Shown one piece after another: positions 8,401-62,094 of a stretch of DNA of 64,000 nt. Every line of letters begins with the position of its first letter. The stretch's first letter is position 1. The translations under genes were made by a program, and so were the position numbers. The DNA is from an uncultured Akkermansia sp. (GTDB lineage: Bacteria > Verrucomicrobiota > Verrucomicrobiia > Verrucomicrobiales > Akkermansiaceae). The notes beneath the pieces are model-generated. The model searched no databases, was not told the origin of the DNA, and worked only from the letters and a program-made list of their open reading frames with translations. The stretch covers positions 62,001 through 126,000 of the forward strand of contig CANQSS010000001.1 of the NCBI GenBank assembly GCA_947626545.1. The letters are read 5' to 3'.

Positions 8401-8592
8401 GCAAACGCATTAGAAAAGACGTTTATCCATTTACGATTTACGATTTACGATTTACGATTTACGATTTGGGAAATTCGCGCGCGTTGCGCGGGGCGGCAGA
8501 GCAGGAGCGAGTGGAATGTGATAAAACCGTGCGCGGGCGTAGTTACAAAGCAACGGGAGGCGGGGCGCCTGACGGCGCCTATGGACGATTGC
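8401..8592 (+). repeat. Hairpin-heptamer composite repeat
   Basis: GCAAACGCAT remnant, 5 x TACGATT at 8432-8466, GCGCGCGTTGCGCGG, GGCGCC-TGAC-GGCGCC-TATGGACGATTGC. Confidence 0.9.
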
Positions 8593-10608
8593 TTATTTGC
8601 AAAGGCGCTTGGCGTGTGCGACGATATTGGGCACGTTCATGCCAAGTTCGCTGAGCACTTGTTCACCGGGAGCCGAAAATCCGAATTGATCGATGCCGAT
8701 GATGGAACCTTGCGAACCAACGTAGCGGTACCAGAGGTCAGACTTGCCGGCTTCCACCGCCAAGCGACGCGTGCAGGAAGACGGCAAAACGCTTTCCCGG
8801 TAAACCTCGCTCTGCTGATTAAACCTCCACATGGACGGCATGGAAACCACACGCACTCCCTCTCCGAGCTCGGCAGCCGCCTGCAGCGCAAGCAGAACCT
8901 CCGATCCCGCAGCGATGATGATGAGCTGTGGTTTGTCAGTGCCCTCACGCCGGGCCACATAGGCGCCGCGCAGTGTCCCCTCGCGCCGCATTTGCGCGCT
9001 CAACTCCGGCTGAACTGCAGTGAGAGAGGGCACATTTTGGCGGGTCAAGATAAGAGCTGTCGGACCATCCGTGCGCTCCATAGCGCACATCCAAGCGCCG
9101 GCGGCCTCCTCCTCATCTGCCGGGCGCACCACATCCAAGTTCGGGATGATGCGCAGCCCCGTCACGGTCTCCACCGGCTGATGCGTCGGTCCATCCTCGC
9201 CCACGGCGACGGAATCATGCGTGAGCACATAGGTGACGGGCAAGTGAGCCAACGCAGCCACACGTATGGCAGCGCGCATGTAATCCACAAACACGCAGAA
9301 AGTGCCGGCAGACACGCGGAAGAGGCCATCGTAGGCGATGCCATTGCAGATGGCAGCCATGGCATGTTCGCGAATACCGAACCAGAAATTGCGTCCTGCA
9401 TAATTTTGCGCGGAGAAGTCGCCCGCGTCTTTCAGGTAATTTTTGTTGGACGAGAAGAGATCCGCGCTTGTGGAGAGGAAAGCCGGACAGTGCGATGAAA
9501 TAGCGTTTTCGACTTGAGCGGCAGATGTACGAGTGGCCAGCTTGGACCCGCCCTCAAAATGCGGGATCATGGCGTCCGACTTCTCCGCGCTCAACCCGCA
9601 CACCGCCAAATCCATGCCAGATTCCAGCTCCTGCGCCTTCTCCGGGCAGGCCTGTTTCCACGCCGCAAAAAGCTCGTGCCACTCTGCACACGCGGCCACA
9701 CGCTGCGCTTTCAGCTGTGCCATGTACTCACGCACCTCAGCAGACACGTAGTACTGCTGATCCGTCGGCAGGCCCCAATTAGCATGTGCAGCCTCCCATA
9801 TCTTCGCACCACCCTCCCCATGACCCTTGGTGGTTCCCTCAAATCCCGGCACCCCTTTTGCAATAGTCGTGTGGGCGACAATGAGTTTTGGGCGACCATT
9901 ACGTTCCAAACGAGCCGTGCGCAAAGCGTTTTCCACCGCCTGCAAATCATGTCCGTCGACGGTGAAAGTATCCCACCCGTGCGCCGCAAAGCATGCGGCT
10001 ACATCATCCACCTGAGTCCTTTCTACCGGAGCGTCCAGAGTGATGCCGTTGGCGTCGTATATGAGCACGAGGTTATCCAGACGGAGCGTTCCGGCGATGG
10101 CAGCTGCCTCGCGAGAAATTCCCTCCTGCATACATCCATCACCCGCCAAGCAATAAACGGTTTGATCAAAGATTTCATATTCGGGCGTGTTATAGCGGGC
10201 GGCAGCGTGTTTGGCAGAAATAGCAAAGCCTACGGCGTTTGCGATACCCTGCCCCAGCGGTCCGGTGGTACACTCCACCCCCGGGCAGCAACCGAACTCC
10301 GGATGCCCCGGAGTGTGCGAACCCTTTGAACGAAAAGCGCGCACATCCTCCATCGTCACATCATACCCGCTCAGATGCAACCAAGCGTACAAAAACATGG
10401 AGCCATGCCCACCGGAAAGGATAAAGCGGTCGCGGTTCAGCCAGCGAGGTTCATCGGGATTCACCCGCAGCAGCTCTCCATAAAGCACGGCCCCTATTTC
10501 CGCGCACCCAAGCGGCAAACCTATGTGTCCGGATGATTTGTCATATATGGCATCTATTGCCAAGCCTCTGGCTTCATTTGCTGCCCGTTGTAAAATATCC
10601 GCCTTCAT
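8593..10608 (-). CDS. tkt: Transketolase
   Basis: 'GHIGLPLGCAEIGAVLYGELL', 'GPLGQGIANAVGFAI', 'AGDGCMQEGISREAA', 'THDSVAVGEDGPTHQPVE'. Confidence 0.97.
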   Translation of the reverse strand: MKADILQRAANEARGLAIDAIYDKSSGHIGLPLGCAEIGAVLYGELLRVNPDEPRWLNRDRFILSGGHGSMFLYAWLHLSGYDVTMEDVRAFRSKGSHTPGHPEFGCCPGVECTTGPLGQGIANAVGFAISAKHAAARYNTPEYEIFDQTVYCLAGDGCMQEGISREAAAIAGTLRLDNLVLIYDANGITLDAPVERTQVDDVAACFAAHGWDTFTVDGHDLQAVENALRTARLERNGRPKLIVAHTTIAKGVPGFEGTTKGHGEGGAKIWEAAHANWGLPTDQQYYVSAEVREYMAQLKAQRVAACAEWHELFAAWKQACPEKAQELESGMDLAVCGLSAEKSDAMIPHFEGGSKLATRTSAAQVENAISSHCPAFLSTSADLFSSNKNYLKDAGDFSAQNYAGRNFWFGIREHAMAAICNGIAYDGLFRVSAGTFCVFVDYMRAAIRVAALAHLPVTYVLTHDSVAVGEDGPTHQPVETVTGLRIIPNLDVVRPADEEEAAGAWMCAMERTDGPTALILTRQNVPSLTAVQPELSAQMRREGTLRGAYVARREGTDKPQLIIIAAGSEVLLALQAAAELGEGVRVVSMPSMWRFNQQSEVYRESVLPSSCTRRLAVEAGKSDLWYRYVGSQGSIIGIDQFGFSAPGEQVLSELGMNVPNIVAHAKRLCK

Positions 10609-10618
10609 TCGCGCCGTC

Positions 10619-10646
10619 AGTATACCAGATTACCCGGTTTTGTAAA
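10619..10646 (-). promoter_or_regulatory. Sigma70-type promoter for tkt
   Basis: TTTACA-16-TATACT, 10 nt to ATG. Confidence 0.55.
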
Positions 10647-10659
10647 GTAAAACAAACCC

Positions 10660-10899
10660 AGGGCAAACGCATTAGAAAATGCGTTTGCCTATGTACGATT
10701 TACGATTTACGATGTACGATTTATTAATAATGTGCGCGTTGCGCAGATTTTTCGGATCATTAATGTGTGTTGAGATCCCTTTAGAGCCATCATCATAATG
10801 ACCACCGGTTATCACGGTTTTTGATACGTGTGAACAGTGATAGCAGCCAATAAAAGCATTTTTCTTTGTTGATTGACTTCTCCCAAATGCGTTTGCCCT
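10660..10899. mobile_element. ~240-bp MITE-like element with inverted termini AGGGCAAACGCATT / AATGCGTTTGCCCT
   Basis: Left end 10660-10673, right end 10886-10899; internal heptamers and GTGCGCGTTGCGCA; internal homology to 32178-32312. Confidence 0.75.
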
Positions 10900-10910
10900 A
10901 GGGTGTCCCA

Positions 10911-10939
10911 TTGACACGGTGAAAAAAATCGGCTAGAAT
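10911..10939 (+). promoter_or_regulatory. Sigma70-type promoter for fabG
   Basis: TTGACA-17-TAGAAT, 9 nt to ATG. Confidence 0.7.
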
Positions 10940-10948
10940 GGCGGGCGT

Positions 10949-11695
10949 ATGAACAGACTTGCAGGAAAAACGGCTGTGGTGACTGGAGCTGGGCGCGGGA
11001 TAGGGTACGCTATTGCACATCGATTTGCGCAGGAGGGAGCGAAGGTAGCTCTCATATCGCGCAACACGGCGTCATGCGGAGGAGCCGCGGAGCGGATAAA
11101 CGAGGAGATACCCGGGAGCTGCAAGGCCTACCCATGCGATGTGGCTGATGCCGAGGCGGTGGACGCGTGCGTGAAAGCGATATTGGCAGATTTTCCAGCA
11201 GTGGATATCTTGGTAAATAATGCGGGCATCACAAAGGATGGACTGCTCATGCGTATGAAGGAAGAGGACTGGGACGCCGTAGTCTCCACGAATTTGAAGA
11301 GCGCGTTCCTCTTCGTGAAGGCCCTGCAACGCACGCTCATGAAGAGCCCTGCGGGTCGTATCATCAACATGAGTTCCGTCGTTGGCATCTCCGGTAATGC
11401 GGGACAGGCGAATTATGCGGCATCAAAGGCCGGGGTAATCGGGTTCACCAAATCGGTGGCGCAGGAATTAGCCGGGCGCAAAGTGACGAGTAATGCGATA
11501 GCGCCCGGGTTTATTGCAACGGAAATGACGGATGCCATACCGGAGAAAGCGCGGGAGGCTATCTTGTCCCGCATACCCTTGGCTGATATGGGCAAGCCGG
11601 AGGACATCGCCAGCTGCGCACTTTTCCTAGCCTCTGATGAAGCGCGGTACATCACTGGTCAGGTGCTGGTGTGCGATGGCGGCATGTGCATGTAA
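10949..11695 (+). CDS. fabG: 3-oxoacyl-[acyl-carrier-protein] reductase
   Basis: SDR fold: 'VVTGAGRGIGYAIA', 'LVNNAGITKD', 'YAASKAGVIGFTKS'. Confidence 0.95.
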   Translation: MNRLAGKTAVVTGAGRGIGYAIAHRFAQEGAKVALISRNTASCGGAAERINEEIPGSCKAYPCDVADAEAVDACVKAILADFPAVDILVNNAGITKDGLLMRMKEEDWDAVVSTNLKSAFLFVKALQRTLMKSPAGRIINMSSVVGISGNAGQANYAASKAGVIGFTKSVAQELAGRKVTSNAIAPGFIATEMTDAIPEKAREAILSRIPLADMGKPEDIASCALFLASDEARYITGQVLVCDGGMCM

Positions 11696-11707: not shown

Positions 11708-12196
11708 GTGACAGCAGTACGGAAACCGGTTCAGAAGTTCCTGGGACTCCTGCTGGTGCTGATGGTGACGGACTGCCAGCAGCAGCACGGGGCTCCGCCG
11801 CCGTACCGGGGCTACAAAATGGCGCCCTACACGCTGAAGGGACTGCGTTTCGTGCCCATGAATGTGGAGCAGGCTCTCCGTTACAAGGCGGTGGGCATCG
11901 CCTCGCATTACGAGGCAGATGGCGCTCCCGGGGCTATCGGCCAGCGCCTTTACCGCGACCAATATTACGCTGCACACCGCACCCTGCCCCTGCCATGCTC
12001 GGCTCGCATCACCAACTTGGAGAACGGGAAGAGCTGCATCGTGCGCGTTGCTGACCGCGGGCCCTATATTGCGGGCAGGCTCATCGATGTAAGCACTGCG
12101 GCGGCGCACAAGCTGGATTTCCACAGCAATGGGTTGGCACGTGTGAAAATTGAGGTTCTCTCCGTAGGGGATGGCCCGTACAAACGCACACGCTAA
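11708..12196 (+). CDS. RlpA-like septal ring lytic transglycosylase
   Basis: 'AVGIASHYEADGAPGAIGQRLYRDQYYAAHRTLPLPCSARITNLENGKSCIVRVADRGPY' RlpA/DPBB motif; GTG start. Confidence 0.85.
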   Translation: MTAVRKPVQKFLGLLLVLMVTDCQQQHGAPPPYRGYKMAPYTLKGLRFVPMNVEQALRYKAVGIASHYEADGAPGAIGQRLYRDQYYAAHRTLPLPCSARITNLENGKSCIVRVADRGPYIAGRLIDVSTAAAHKLDFHSNGLARVKIEVLSVGDGPYKRTR

Positions 12197-12199
12197 GCA

Positions 12200-12535
12200 A
12201 GGCAACTGCATTAGAAAATGCGGGGGCCCAGCGGCGCCTATGTACGATTTTCGATGTACGATGTACGATTGCCATATTCGCGCGCGTTGCGCGGGGAGGC
12301 GGGGCGCCTGACGGCGCCTATGTACGAGGTACGATGGACGATGTACGATTTGAGAAATTTGGCGAGTGAAGCTCGCGGAACTGCGAAGCTTGAGCTGAGG
12401 TGGTGGGGAAAATCATGGGAGGTTGTTGGTTCGAAAGGGGCTGGGTTATGCAAAGCTGTGTCACGGGCTGAAATGATTTACGATTTACGATTTGCAGAGC
12501 TTGCGCGCGTTGCGCGGGGAGGTGGAGCAAGCCCT
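12200..12535 (+). repeat. Hairpin-heptamer composite repeats between convergent rlpA-like and tatD genes
   Basis: CTGCATTAGAAAATGC remnant, GGCGCC-TGAC-GGCGCC-TATGTACGAGG at 12303, several heptamer tracts, GCGCGCGTTGCGCGG twice. Confidence 0.9.
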
Positions 12536-16269: not shown

Positions 16270-16437
16270 GTCATAGGCGGACAAGGTCTCCCTATGTACG
16301 ATGGCCGACGTACGATGTACGATTGCAGGGCTTGCGCGCGTTGCGCGGGGCAGCGGTGGCGCCTAGCGGCGCCTATGTGCGAGGTACGATGAACGATTTG
16401 GGAAGTTTGCGCGCTTACGCGCTAGCACTCATGTCGT
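16270..16437 (+). repeat. Hairpin-heptamer composite repeat
   Basis: CTATGTACGATGGCCGACGTACGATGTACGATTGC, GCGCGCGTTGCGCGG, GGCGCC-TAGC-GGCGCC-TATGTGCGAGG. Confidence 0.85.
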
Positions 16438-31915: not shown

Positions 31916-32312
31916 ACAGAGGCAGATGGGATCTGCCTATGTACGATGTACGATGTACGATTTCCAAATTCGCGCGCGTTGCGCGAGGAAGCGGGGGCAG
32001 ATGGGATCTGCCTATGTACGAAGTACGAGGTACGATGTACGATTTCCAAATTCGCGCGCGTTGCGCGGGGAAGCAGAACAAAAGCGACACGGAATTTTTT
32101 ATGCGACTACTGGTCGTGGTTAGAAAGCGACGATGGCAGACGGTGGCGGCGAGACGCCGCCCATGTACGAGGTACGACGGAGGCAGAGATTCCTCTAGAT
32201 CCATCATCATGATGACCGCTGTTTCACGATTTCTGATACGTATAAACGATGATATCAGTCAATAAGAGCACTTTCTCCGTTGATGAACTTTTCTCAAATG
32301 CGTTTGCCCTGT
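31916..32312 (+). repeat. Array of three hairpin-heptamer units followed by the right arm of the 10.66-kb element
   Basis: GGCAGAT-GGG-ATCTGCC-TATG at 31921 and 31996; GGCGGC-GAGAC-GCCGCC-CATG at 32145; 32178-32312 aligns with 10770-10900. Confidence 0.85.
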
Positions 32313-34187: not shown

Positions 34188-34460
34188 AGCGGCGAGAAGC
34201 CGCCTATGTACGATGTACGATGTACGATGTACGATTGCGGAATTCGCGCGCGTTGCGCAGGGCAGCAAAGCAGAAACGAGCGGAATGTGATAAAGCCGTG
34301 CACGAACGTAGTTACAAAGCGACGGGAAGACGGAGGCAGACAAGGTCTGCTTATGTACGATTTTCGATGTACGATGTACGATTGCGGAATTCGCGCGCGT
34401 TGCGCGGGGCGGCAAAGCAGGAACGAGCGGAATATGATGGAACAGTGCGTGAGGCGACGA
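34188..34460 (+). repeat. Two tandem full-length hairpin-heptamer units
   Basis: GCGGC-GAGAA-GCCGC and GCAGAC-AAG-GTCTGC hairpins, TATGTACGATG arrays, two GAATTCGCGCGCGTTGCGC[A/G]GGG copies, near-identical tails. Confidence 0.93.
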
Positions 34461-41203: not shown

Positions 41204-41370
41204 CACATCCGTCCCAAGAAAAGCACCCCCTATAGGCAGTTAACGGCATATCGTGAAGCATAAGTTGTTGGTTATTTACGATTTACGATGTACGATTTAC
41301 GATTTGAATGCTAGCACGCTGCGCGCGTTCCTGCGAAACAAAAGCAAAGCAGAATTTTCGAAGACGATGG
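41203..41370 (+). repeat. CATCCGTCCCAAG / CTAGCACGCT composite repeat with heptamers
   Basis: Shared with 30779-30950. Confidence 0.8.
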
Positions 41371-44430: not shown

Positions 44431-44479
44431 CCCGTCCGCAATATAGCAGATTCTACCGCTTGTTAGCAAGCCAATTTGC

Positions 44480-44728
44480 AGGGCAAACGCATTAGAAAAT
44501 GCGTCTGCCATTTACGATTTTCGATTTACGAATTATAATTTATTGATAACGTACGCGTTGCGCACGTGTATTCCGGATGGAAGATGTACTCAAAAATGAG
44601 AGAGGGACAACTTCATTCGCATCACGTAGTGTGCTGTCATTGCGGTTTTCGTGTTCGTAAATAGACTCATGATCAATCGTTTAGAAAGTTTTTCTCTCCC
44701 TTTCTACTTCATCCAAATGCGTTTGCCG
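44480..44728. mobile_element. Second ~250-bp inverted-terminus element
   Basis: AGGGCAAACGCATTAGAAAATGCGTCTGCC at left, AAATGCGTTTGCC at right, internal heptamers and GTACGCGTTGCGCAC. Confidence 0.7.
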
Positions 44729-44803
44729 TATGAACTTGTGATTATGCTTGACGTATGTAGCCAAAACTGGCAGAATGTCGCGCGACCGTCATTCTGCGCT
44801 GAT

Positions 44804-48653: not shown

Positions 48654-50915
48654 TTATAAGTTGCTGAAAGGCACAAAATCCTGAGCGGGATCTTCCTGTT
48701 TGGGAACGGTGGTGATGTTAAGCACAGCACTCGACCATGCGAGCTTGCTGAACTTGGCATGTTTGGCATGTTTTTCTCGGAAAGCAAGAAGAGCTTGGTT
48801 CTCAATCTGTCCGGGACGTTGATCAGGAGTACTCTGCTTAAGTTTTTCATGCAGCTCCTTAGCAAAATCACACTTATGAGTCGTTGCCACAGCCAAAAGC
48901 ACGACAGTCTCCGTACCAAAAGGAGGTTCCACCACCATCTGGTATCCTGTACGTCCAATATTCGGGAACTTCGCCTCCACTGCCGGAAACACCATGTTAT
49001 CCGTTCCATCCTCACCAGGCATAATAAGCTCTGCACCACCCTGGCTATCATGGGCCACGATATACACCCGACAGTCACAATCGGCTTTCACATAGAAGCG
49101 CAAAGGAGCACCTTCCTCAAACCGAGCAGCAGGAGTAGTAACGCGAAAATGCACCATGAAATCAGTCGGAAGATCGAGCAAACTCCCAGGAAGACCCTTC
49201 AACTGAAGCTCAGGTGGGAGAGTTTTTTTCCCCGTTTTCTTGTGAACGAGCGCCGACTGTTTCTTCTTATGGTCGACTGGCAATTGCTCCGGCTTTTTCT
49301 GCAACAAGGTGGGCGCCGGTTCCGGCGAGGGAGAAAGTTCGGGAGCTTTTTCCCGTGGGGATGCAGTCTCTTTCGTATCATCGGAAATAGGATCCGACGA
49401 AAGCTGATCTGTCAGTTCATGCGATTTTTCTTCAGCAGGCAGCTGGGGCTGCTCCGCAGGCTGCGTACTTTCTTCTTTGTCGGCCGCCCCCTTGTCCTTG
49501 CGCCGACCAAGCCCCCAATGAGCAAACTTGTTCTTCCCGGCAGAAACAATACTGGAAAGCTTTCCACGCAAATCGGCTTTTTTCTCGGCAGCTAACTCAC
49601 TGGCGAGCATCTCTTCCATACTGGCGGTCGACTCCCCAGATCCCGACTTCTCTTCCGCATGCTGCTCCGGCGTGGTTGAGGATTCCGGCAATGGGTAGGC
49701 TTGTTGCTCCGGCGTGGCAGGAGATTCCGGCAGTGGGTATGCCTGCTGCTCTGGCGTGGCAGGAGATTCCGGCAGTGGGTATGCCTGCTGCTCTGGCGTG
49801 GCAGGAGATTCCTGCAGCGGGTAGGCTTGCTGCTCTGGCGTGGCAGGAGATTCCGGCAGTGGGTATGCCTGCTGCTCTGGCGTGGCAGGAGATTCCGGCG
49901 ACGGGTAGGCTTGCTGCTCCGGCGAGGCAGGAGATTCCGGCAACGGGTAGGCTTGCTGCTCCGGCGCGGCAGGAGATTCCGGCAACGGGTAGGCTTGCTG
50001 CTCCGGCGCGACGGGAGACTCTGGCAGTGGATAAGCTTGCTGCTCCGGCGTAGCAGAATATTCCGGCAGTGGGTATGCTTGCTGATCCGGCACAGTGTAA
50101 TCACCTTGCTGGGGATAAACAGAGGGCTGGGTGTTTGCCTGCGAGTAATCCAAAACTTGTGGATAAGACGATGAGGCCGGGTACGCCTGTGGATAGGATA
50201 TCGGCGCGGGATAAGGCACTGCCTGCGGGTAGGCTTGCTGCGCAGGATACGCTTCTACCTGCGGGTAGCTCCCGGGCTGCGGGTAGACCTGCTGTGCAGG
50301 ATATGCCCCTGCTTGGGGGTAGACCGCAGGCTGCGGGTAGACCTGCCGTGCAGGGTACGCCTCCGCCTGTGGGTAAGCCACAGGCTGCGGATAGACTTGT
50401 TGTGTAGGGTACACCTCAGCTTGCGGATAAGCTTGAGGTGCAGGATAAGCTCCCACTTGCGGGTAGCCTGCCGATGGCGGGTACGCCTGCGGTACCGGGT
50501 AGGCCTGAGTGGGCGTAGGATAAGCCTGAGTGGGCACCGGATAAGCCGACGAAGGCGGATAGGCCGACGCATATGCCGGAGGAGCCTGGTAAGGCACTTC
50601 CTGCTCATCGAGGGTGTCATCTTCTTGCACTGTCATGTAGCAATATCCGATACGATACGGTTGATTCATAACCAGGAAATCCGACGTAATACGCTGATCA
50701 TCGAGGAAGACACCATTACTGGATTGGTTATCTTGGATCATGAGCTGCCCATTCGAGTACAGAATGAAACAGTGCACACGCGAGAGATACTCCTCGTCCG
50801 GCAAGGATATTTCACACGAAGTATCCCGTCCAATGCGGTACCGCACGCCCTCGACCAGAGCGAAATGATACGCTGTGGTCTCACCGTTCGTATGAGTTAT
50901 GGTGACAGAAATCAT
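48654..50915 (-). CDS. FHA-domain protein with long Pro/Gln/Tyr repeat region and C-terminal DUF4384-like domain
   Basis: N-term 'YRIGRDTSCEISLPDEEYLSRVHCFILYSNGQLMIQDNQSSNGVFLDD' (FHA); ~9 x 14-aa 'ESPATPEQQAYPLP'; C-term 'LRFYVKADCDCRVYIVAHDSQGGAELIMPGE'. Confidence 0.85.
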   Translation of the reverse strand: MISVTITHTNGETTAYHFALVEGVRYRIGRDTSCEISLPDEEYLSRVHCFILYSNGQLMIQDNQSSNGVFLDDQRITSDFLVMNQPYRIGYCYMTVQEDDTLDEQEVPYQAPPAYASAYPPSSAYPVPTQAYPTPTQAYPVPQAYPPSAGYPQVGAYPAPQAYPQAEVYPTQQVYPQPVAYPQAEAYPARQVYPQPAVYPQAGAYPAQQVYPQPGSYPQVEAYPAQQAYPQAVPYPAPISYPQAYPASSSYPQVLDYSQANTQPSVYPQQGDYTVPDQQAYPLPEYSATPEQQAYPLPESPVAPEQQAYPLPESPAAPEQQAYPLPESPASPEQQAYPSPESPATPEQQAYPLPESPATPEQQAYPLQESPATPEQQAYPLPESPATPEQQAYPLPESPATPEQQAYPLPESSTTPEQHAEEKSGSGESTASMEEMLASELAAEKKADLRGKLSSIVSAGKNKFAHWGLGRRKDKGAADKEESTQPAEQPQLPAEEKSHELTDQLSSDPISDDTKETASPREKAPELSPSPEPAPTLLQKKPEQLPVDHKKKQSALVHKKTGKKTLPPELQLKGLPGSLLDLPTDFMVHFRVTTPAARFEEGAPLRFYVKADCDCRVYIVAHDSQGGAELIMPGEDGTDNMVFPAVEAKFPNIGRTGYQMVVEPPFGTETVVLLAVATTHKCDFAKELHEKLKQSTPDQRPGQIENQALLAFREKHAKHAKFSKLAWSSAVLNITTVPKQEDPAQDFVPFSNL
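49660..50110 (-). repeat. 42-bp tandem repeats encoding ESPATPEQQAYPLP
   Basis: About nine near-identical 42-nt units inside the FHA gene. Confidence 0.93.
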
Positions 50916-61938: not shown

Positions 61939-62094
61939 TCAAACTTTTTTGCAAATTTTTTTGCGAATTTTTCTGCTTTTTGCGGGGAAACCAGCTTTTC
62001 CGCAAAGGCAATTTTTTTGCATTTTACGATCTAATTTTTTCAGGTTTTTCCACAATAATTATTCAATATATGCGTACGGGAGGGGTTTTAGGAC

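Follow-up and report, generated by a model that had tools for sequence, protein, structure and literature searches.

A non-autonomous mobile element between tkt and fabG

The 242-bp segment located between the divergent genes tkt and fabG of this uncultured Akkermansia sp. is best explained as a non-autonomous MITE that was moved in trans by the ISAs1-family transposase of a separate 1315-bp IS, with an insertion that is probably near-neutral at this site. We assign a probability of about 95% to this explanation. Dispersed copies of the element, 10-bp TSDs, empty sites in sister species and an IS with matching ends in the same genome were all observed. To judge from the sequences, the ISAs1-family transposase is very probably the mover of the MITE, and the effect of the insertion on tkt and fabG is probably close to neutral. 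The following observations count against the explanation: the copy at this site has no TSD, the corresponding spacer of the closest relative is a composite and not an empty site, and several MITE-bearing species gave no ISAs1 transposase match.

The transposase would recognize the CAGGGCAAACGCATT ends of the MITE, and the MITE would be inserted into 10-bp staggered target sites, mostly in intergenic positions, which would result in 10-bp direct repeats. At tkt-fabG, such an insertion would have lengthened the divergent spacer just outside both core promoters.

Borders and anatomy of the element

Positions refer to the window, which is the whole stretch of 64,000 nucleotides that was analyzed. 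The MITE copy was assigned to positions 10659 to 10900 (plus strand) by its relatives in the same genome and the alignment of the copies, with the family consensus ends CAGGG...CCCTG. The ends were set by the 10-bp TSDs of other copies of the family. The first base of the window copy is a C at position 10659, and the last base at position 10900 is an A where the consensus has a G. The sequence-only reading had described a 240-bp segment bordered by exact 14-bp inverted termini. This repeat pair is indeed present, with AGGGCAAACGCATT (10660-10673) pairing with AATGCGTTTGCCCT (10886-10899), being exact in the window copy and conserved across the MITE family, while the comparison of the copies adds one base at each side, so that the borders had to be moved to give 242 bp. 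The left terminal inverted repeat extends from 10659 to 10680 (plus strand) and contains 20 to 22 bp common to the ends of ISAs1-family IS; the right terminal inverted repeat, at 10884 to 10900 on the minus strand, is the reverse complement of the left tip.

The internal hairpin that had been reported, GGCAAACGCATT-AGAA-AATGCGTTTGCC, was found at 10662 to 10689 (plus strand). It is followed by a heptad minisatellite, (TACGATK)n, at 10690 to 10723 (plus strand), which changes in length from copy to copy mostly by 7 bp, and by the body of the element at 10720 to 10884 (plus strand), in which similarity to the IS was undetectable and the copies differ by indels of 1 bp. A small GC hairpin, TGCGCGTTGCGCA, is conserved within the body (10733-10745). 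A conserved minus-strand open reading frame, 81 amino acids long in the window copy, was considered and rejected; 1-bp indels in other copies break the frame. These frame-breaking indels exclude a conserved ORF, and the segment is non-coding, as had been proposed.

Two further copies are located in the window. The body of the second copy (44479-44730, plus strand) is divergent with 66% identity, with ends and hairpin as in the copy between tkt and fabG. A truncated copy (32186-32310, plus strand) contains only the right half of the MITE, preceded by a heptad array.

Copy number and mobility

With a 276-bp query, no fewer than 40 other loci were matched in the same 2.7-Mb genome, most of them at full length and 80 to 90% identical; as the best 40 candidates were scored, this number is a lower bound. 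For the 28-bp hairpin pattern, about 175 sites were counted in the genome, compared to 0 for a reversed control pattern. A chance inverted repeat is therefore excluded by the dispersed relatives together with the hairpin counts. Both ends are linked in dozens of copies, which answers the question of whether the terminus pair recurs genome-wide. Beyond this species, about a dozen others of the genus Akkermansia also contain relatives of the MITE, and exact matches to the hairpin were found in rabbit-gut Akkermansia MAGs.

The copies are nearly always intergenic. Among 43 copies, the surrounding gap was tandem for 17, divergent for 15 and convergent for 4, which needs to be read against a small window background of only 4 divergent and 5 convergent gaps; 5 of the same 43 copies were at contig or locus edges, and 2 were overlapped by a called ORF.

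Evidence for mobility came from the flanks of 90 copies with both ends, taken from the same genome and from other Akkermansia. An exact 10-bp TSD was present in 24 of them, and an additional 10 copies agreed at 9 and another 4 at 8 of the 10 positions. The resulting 38 of 90 copies with a match of at least 8/10 compare to 0.26% for mismatched pairs of left and right flanks. No exact direct repeats with a length of 6 to 9 or 11 to 13 bp existed among the 90 copies.

The joined flanks of eight TSD-bearing copies were used to search five sister species for empty sites. The L019 site was empty in G045, with 99% identity and a single copy of the target. At the L002 site, G016 was empty, with G045 and G055 filled; at the L023 site, G055 was empty and G045 filled. 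Empty alleles thus exist at these three loci, while a clean pair of filled and empty sites was not obtained for tkt-fabG itself.

The ISAs1-family partner

A single transposase gene of the ISAs1 family is present in the genome, and its ORF of 383 amino acids is intact (profile match to NF033564, 337 bits). A transposase gene with matching ends, as the sequence-only reading had suggested looking for, is therefore located elsewhere in the genome. The corresponding IS is 1315 bp long (L049:1373-2687) with the ends TAGGGCAAACGCATTAGAAAA and CAGGGCAGACGCATTAGAAAA, and relatives of it with 92 to 94% DNA identity and the same length of 1315 bp are present in G060 and G014. ISAs1-family elements possess CAGGG-type ends and generate duplications of 8 to 10 bp. 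The G060 IS (L208) carries CCCCTTGGTT on both flanks, a 10-bp TSD of the same length as that of the MITE; no TSD was visible at the flanks of the IS copy in the genome of the window.

At the left end of the MITE, 22 bp are 100% identical with the right end of the G014 IS, and 20 bp with the left end of the IS in the same genome. At the right end, 16 bp are identical with the left ends of the IS in G014 and G060, and 15 bp with that of the IS in the same genome. Overall, the matches between MITE and IS ends comprise 20 to 22 bp on the left and 14 to 16 bp on the right side, and a BLASTN comparison of both elements revealed no significant match beyond 14 to 22 bp at the ends. The MITE was also considered as an internal-deletion derivative of the IS and this origin was rejected, the body having no significant BLASTN match to the IS interior. 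The MITE thus resembles the ISAs1-family IS (NF033564) in the CAGGG-type ends and the 10-bp TSD of the G060 copy, and the transposase ORF is present in the same genome; it differs by having no transposase ORF of its own and a body, about 200 bp long, in which no similarity to the IS was detectable. No ISAs1 transposase match was found in the MITE-bearing genomes G055, G025, G054, G047, G026 and G020. Mobility in these species therefore belongs to the past, or the IS is missing from the MAGs.

The tkt-fabG site

The element is located between tkt (transketolase, 8593-10608, minus strand, TIGR00232, 725 bits) and fabG (3-oxoacyl-ACP reductase, 10949-11695, plus strand, TIGR01830, 320 bits). The core promoter of tkt, TTTACA-16-TATACT (10619-10646, minus strand), and that of fabG, TTGACA-17-TAGAAT (10911-10939, plus strand), are both outside of the MITE, and a similar motif exists upstream of tkt in relatives, as the fabG motif is kept upstream of fabG. 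The sequence-only reading had placed the element just upstream of both −35 sites, and this position holds with the corrected borders, TTTACA being 12 bp and TTGACA 10 bp away.

When 1.5 kb upstream of tkt was examined, only G045 among 27 relatives with tkt shared the tkt-fabG synteny. G045 is the closest relative, with Tkt and FabG proteins 99 to 100% identical to those of the window. Its tkt-fabG spacer is a nested composite of 1189 bp whose outer flanks match those in the window. There are hairpins at either border; several units of GC-rich repeats and a MITE that is reversed and interrupted internally are also part of the composite. A target-site duplication had not been seen at the window copy before, and its flanks AAAACAAACC and GGGTGTCCCA do differ, with 10-bp TSDs being common in the family. 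Because the window copy has no TSD and the G045 composite has the same outer borders, we infer that this spacer is the product of several insertions and of recombination between repeats, and the single copy now present may be a recombinant.

In G055 (L235), an independent MITE precedes fabG in the opposite orientation and has the perfect TSD GCCCTAGCGT. MITE-like remnants or hairpins are located upstream of fabG in G054 (L241), G025 (L242), G026 (L243) and G065 (L236), and no MITE was found upstream of this gene in G060, G047, G016, G020, G014 and G008.

Evaluation of other explanations

The abundance of the hairpin, which exceeds that of the full MITE copies found, would fit a REP/BIME-type palindromic repeat spread by a RAYT (Y1 HUH) transposase. 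Insertion mediated by HUH enzymes leaves no TSD, however, and the two-ended structure, the 10-bp TSDs and the ends shared with an IS encoding a DDE transposase refute such an origin for the two-ended copies, so that it is very improbable as an explanation of the segment. Equally improbable is that the spacer is a conserved, non-mobile regulatory or RNA element of tkt-fabG, such as a riboswitch, an sRNA or a bidirectional terminator. The location between two promoters and a small conserved GC hairpin with a T-run (10731-10755) may point in this direction, but dozens of copies adjoin unrelated genes, and Rfam gave only a weak match to an animal miRNA, far below the gathering score. The fold of the body was no better than that of shuffled sequences on either strand (z of −0.07 and −0.32), and no conserved body fold was found among the aligned copies; the z of −2.58 for the whole element includes pairing of the inverted ends. 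Covariation in RNAalifold was almost exclusively that of the terminal hairpin.

Alternatively, a transposed MITE may have been domesticated later as a bidirectional insulator or terminator that separates the tkt and fabG units, which would be compatible with the near-neutral insertion of a trans-mobilized MITE. The MITE-like insertions and remnants that precede fabG in several other species and the preponderance of divergent over convergent copy locations agree with such a role. On the other hand, fabG does without a MITE in G060, G047, G016, G020, G014 and G008, divergent spacers are longer and hence larger targets, and the background sample is small. We consider the insulator role unlikely, albeit less so than the two origins above, and take near-neutral insertion as the first choice and the insulator as the second.

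Hairpin, heptads and exchange of bodies

The arms of the terminal hairpin co-vary among the copies at pair 6, which in the RNAalifold pair counts is A-T in 39 copies, C-G in 23 and a mismatch in 2. In 215 left ends, 2116 Watson-Crick pairs were counted compared to 1983 ± 8 in shuffles, a null that is not strict for related sequences. The right terminus did not follow the change in the hairpin, and among 78 two-ended copies, 22 of the 30 with a C-G hairpin retained the T at that end.

The lengths of the heptad arrays cluster at 16, 23, 30, 37 and 44 (or one less), which are 7-bp steps. Heptads are also present in many dispersed repeats other than the MITE, and at least one strict four-unit array was found in 34 of 69 Akkermansia genomes compared to 13 of 388 in a phylum-wide sample of genomes. 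The reversed control pattern AGCATNN ×4, intended as a null, was itself abundant in G314, G397, G361, G344 and G328 (up to 87 and 122 matches), which belong to another family of the same phylum; other heptad arrays therefore exist in that family.

A second kind of dispersed repeat consists of a short GC hairpin (e.g., GGTGGCGCCTAGCGGCACC), TATG, (TACGATG)n and a GCGCGCGTTGCGCGGGG-type body. It occurs in the window at 2298-2500, 8429-8500, 12190-12350, 16294-16400, 31930-32070, 34200-34400 and 41274-41305. Its units are often arranged in tandem, and in some cases inverted heptads border them. An insert, TACAACACGCACGACGGC...GTGAGTCAACT, is located within heptad arrays at about 2525-2660 of the window, in L128 and in L037, with one of its positions being inside a MITE of G045, as if the heptads were insertion or exchange points. 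Other repeats of the window are long tandem repeats with units of 42 and 54 bp at 49660-50547, probably a repetitive coding region, and three copies of the 12-bp tandem repeat CAAATTTTTTTG at 61940-61976.

At many places, the hairpin and the heptads after it lead into differing bodies, an arrangement that suggests exchange at the arrays. A tentative extension is that the hairpin and (TACGATK)n form a recombination platform, in which arrays common to the MITE and to other, GC-rich dispersed repeats would allow bodies to be swapped, generating a mosaic of elements that have one mobile end in common and repeatedly rebuilding sites such as tkt-fabG. The arm covariation would then reflect a process at the DNA level instead of an RNA function, and may come from template-switch correction of the quasi-palindrome or from recognition of a cruciform.

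Relation to known elements and biological meaning

BrickBuilt of Porphyromonas gingivalis is a minisatellite-bearing MITE with a 23-nt repeat and IS5-family ends; its target duplication is AAAA at the described site, and its activity as a promoter was measured in E. coli (PMC4596501). Both elements are intergenic and multi-copy, share their TIRs with a full-length IS of the same genome and carry a tandem repeat between leader and tail. The Akkermansia MITE differs by the 7-nt repeat, the ISAs1-family ends, the 10-bp TSD and the terminal hairpin. The MITEs of Anabaena sp. 90 are similarly 100 to 300 bp long, intergenic and multi-copy, and ISAs1-family IS are likewise present in the genome of that strain (PMC3542288). 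The literature searched contained no account of a MITE from Akkermansia. The family is newly recognized, and MITEs with IS-matched ends and minisatellite-bearing MITEs are already known kinds.

Some of the repeats in Akkermansia MAGs from the rabbit gut are explained by the MITE family. With a probable autonomous partner, exact ends, a defined TSD length and empty sites, this family makes trans-mobilization by an ISAs1-family transposase directly testable. The co-varying terminal hairpin together with the exchangeable heptad minisatellite provides a system for how small transposons gain new bodies.
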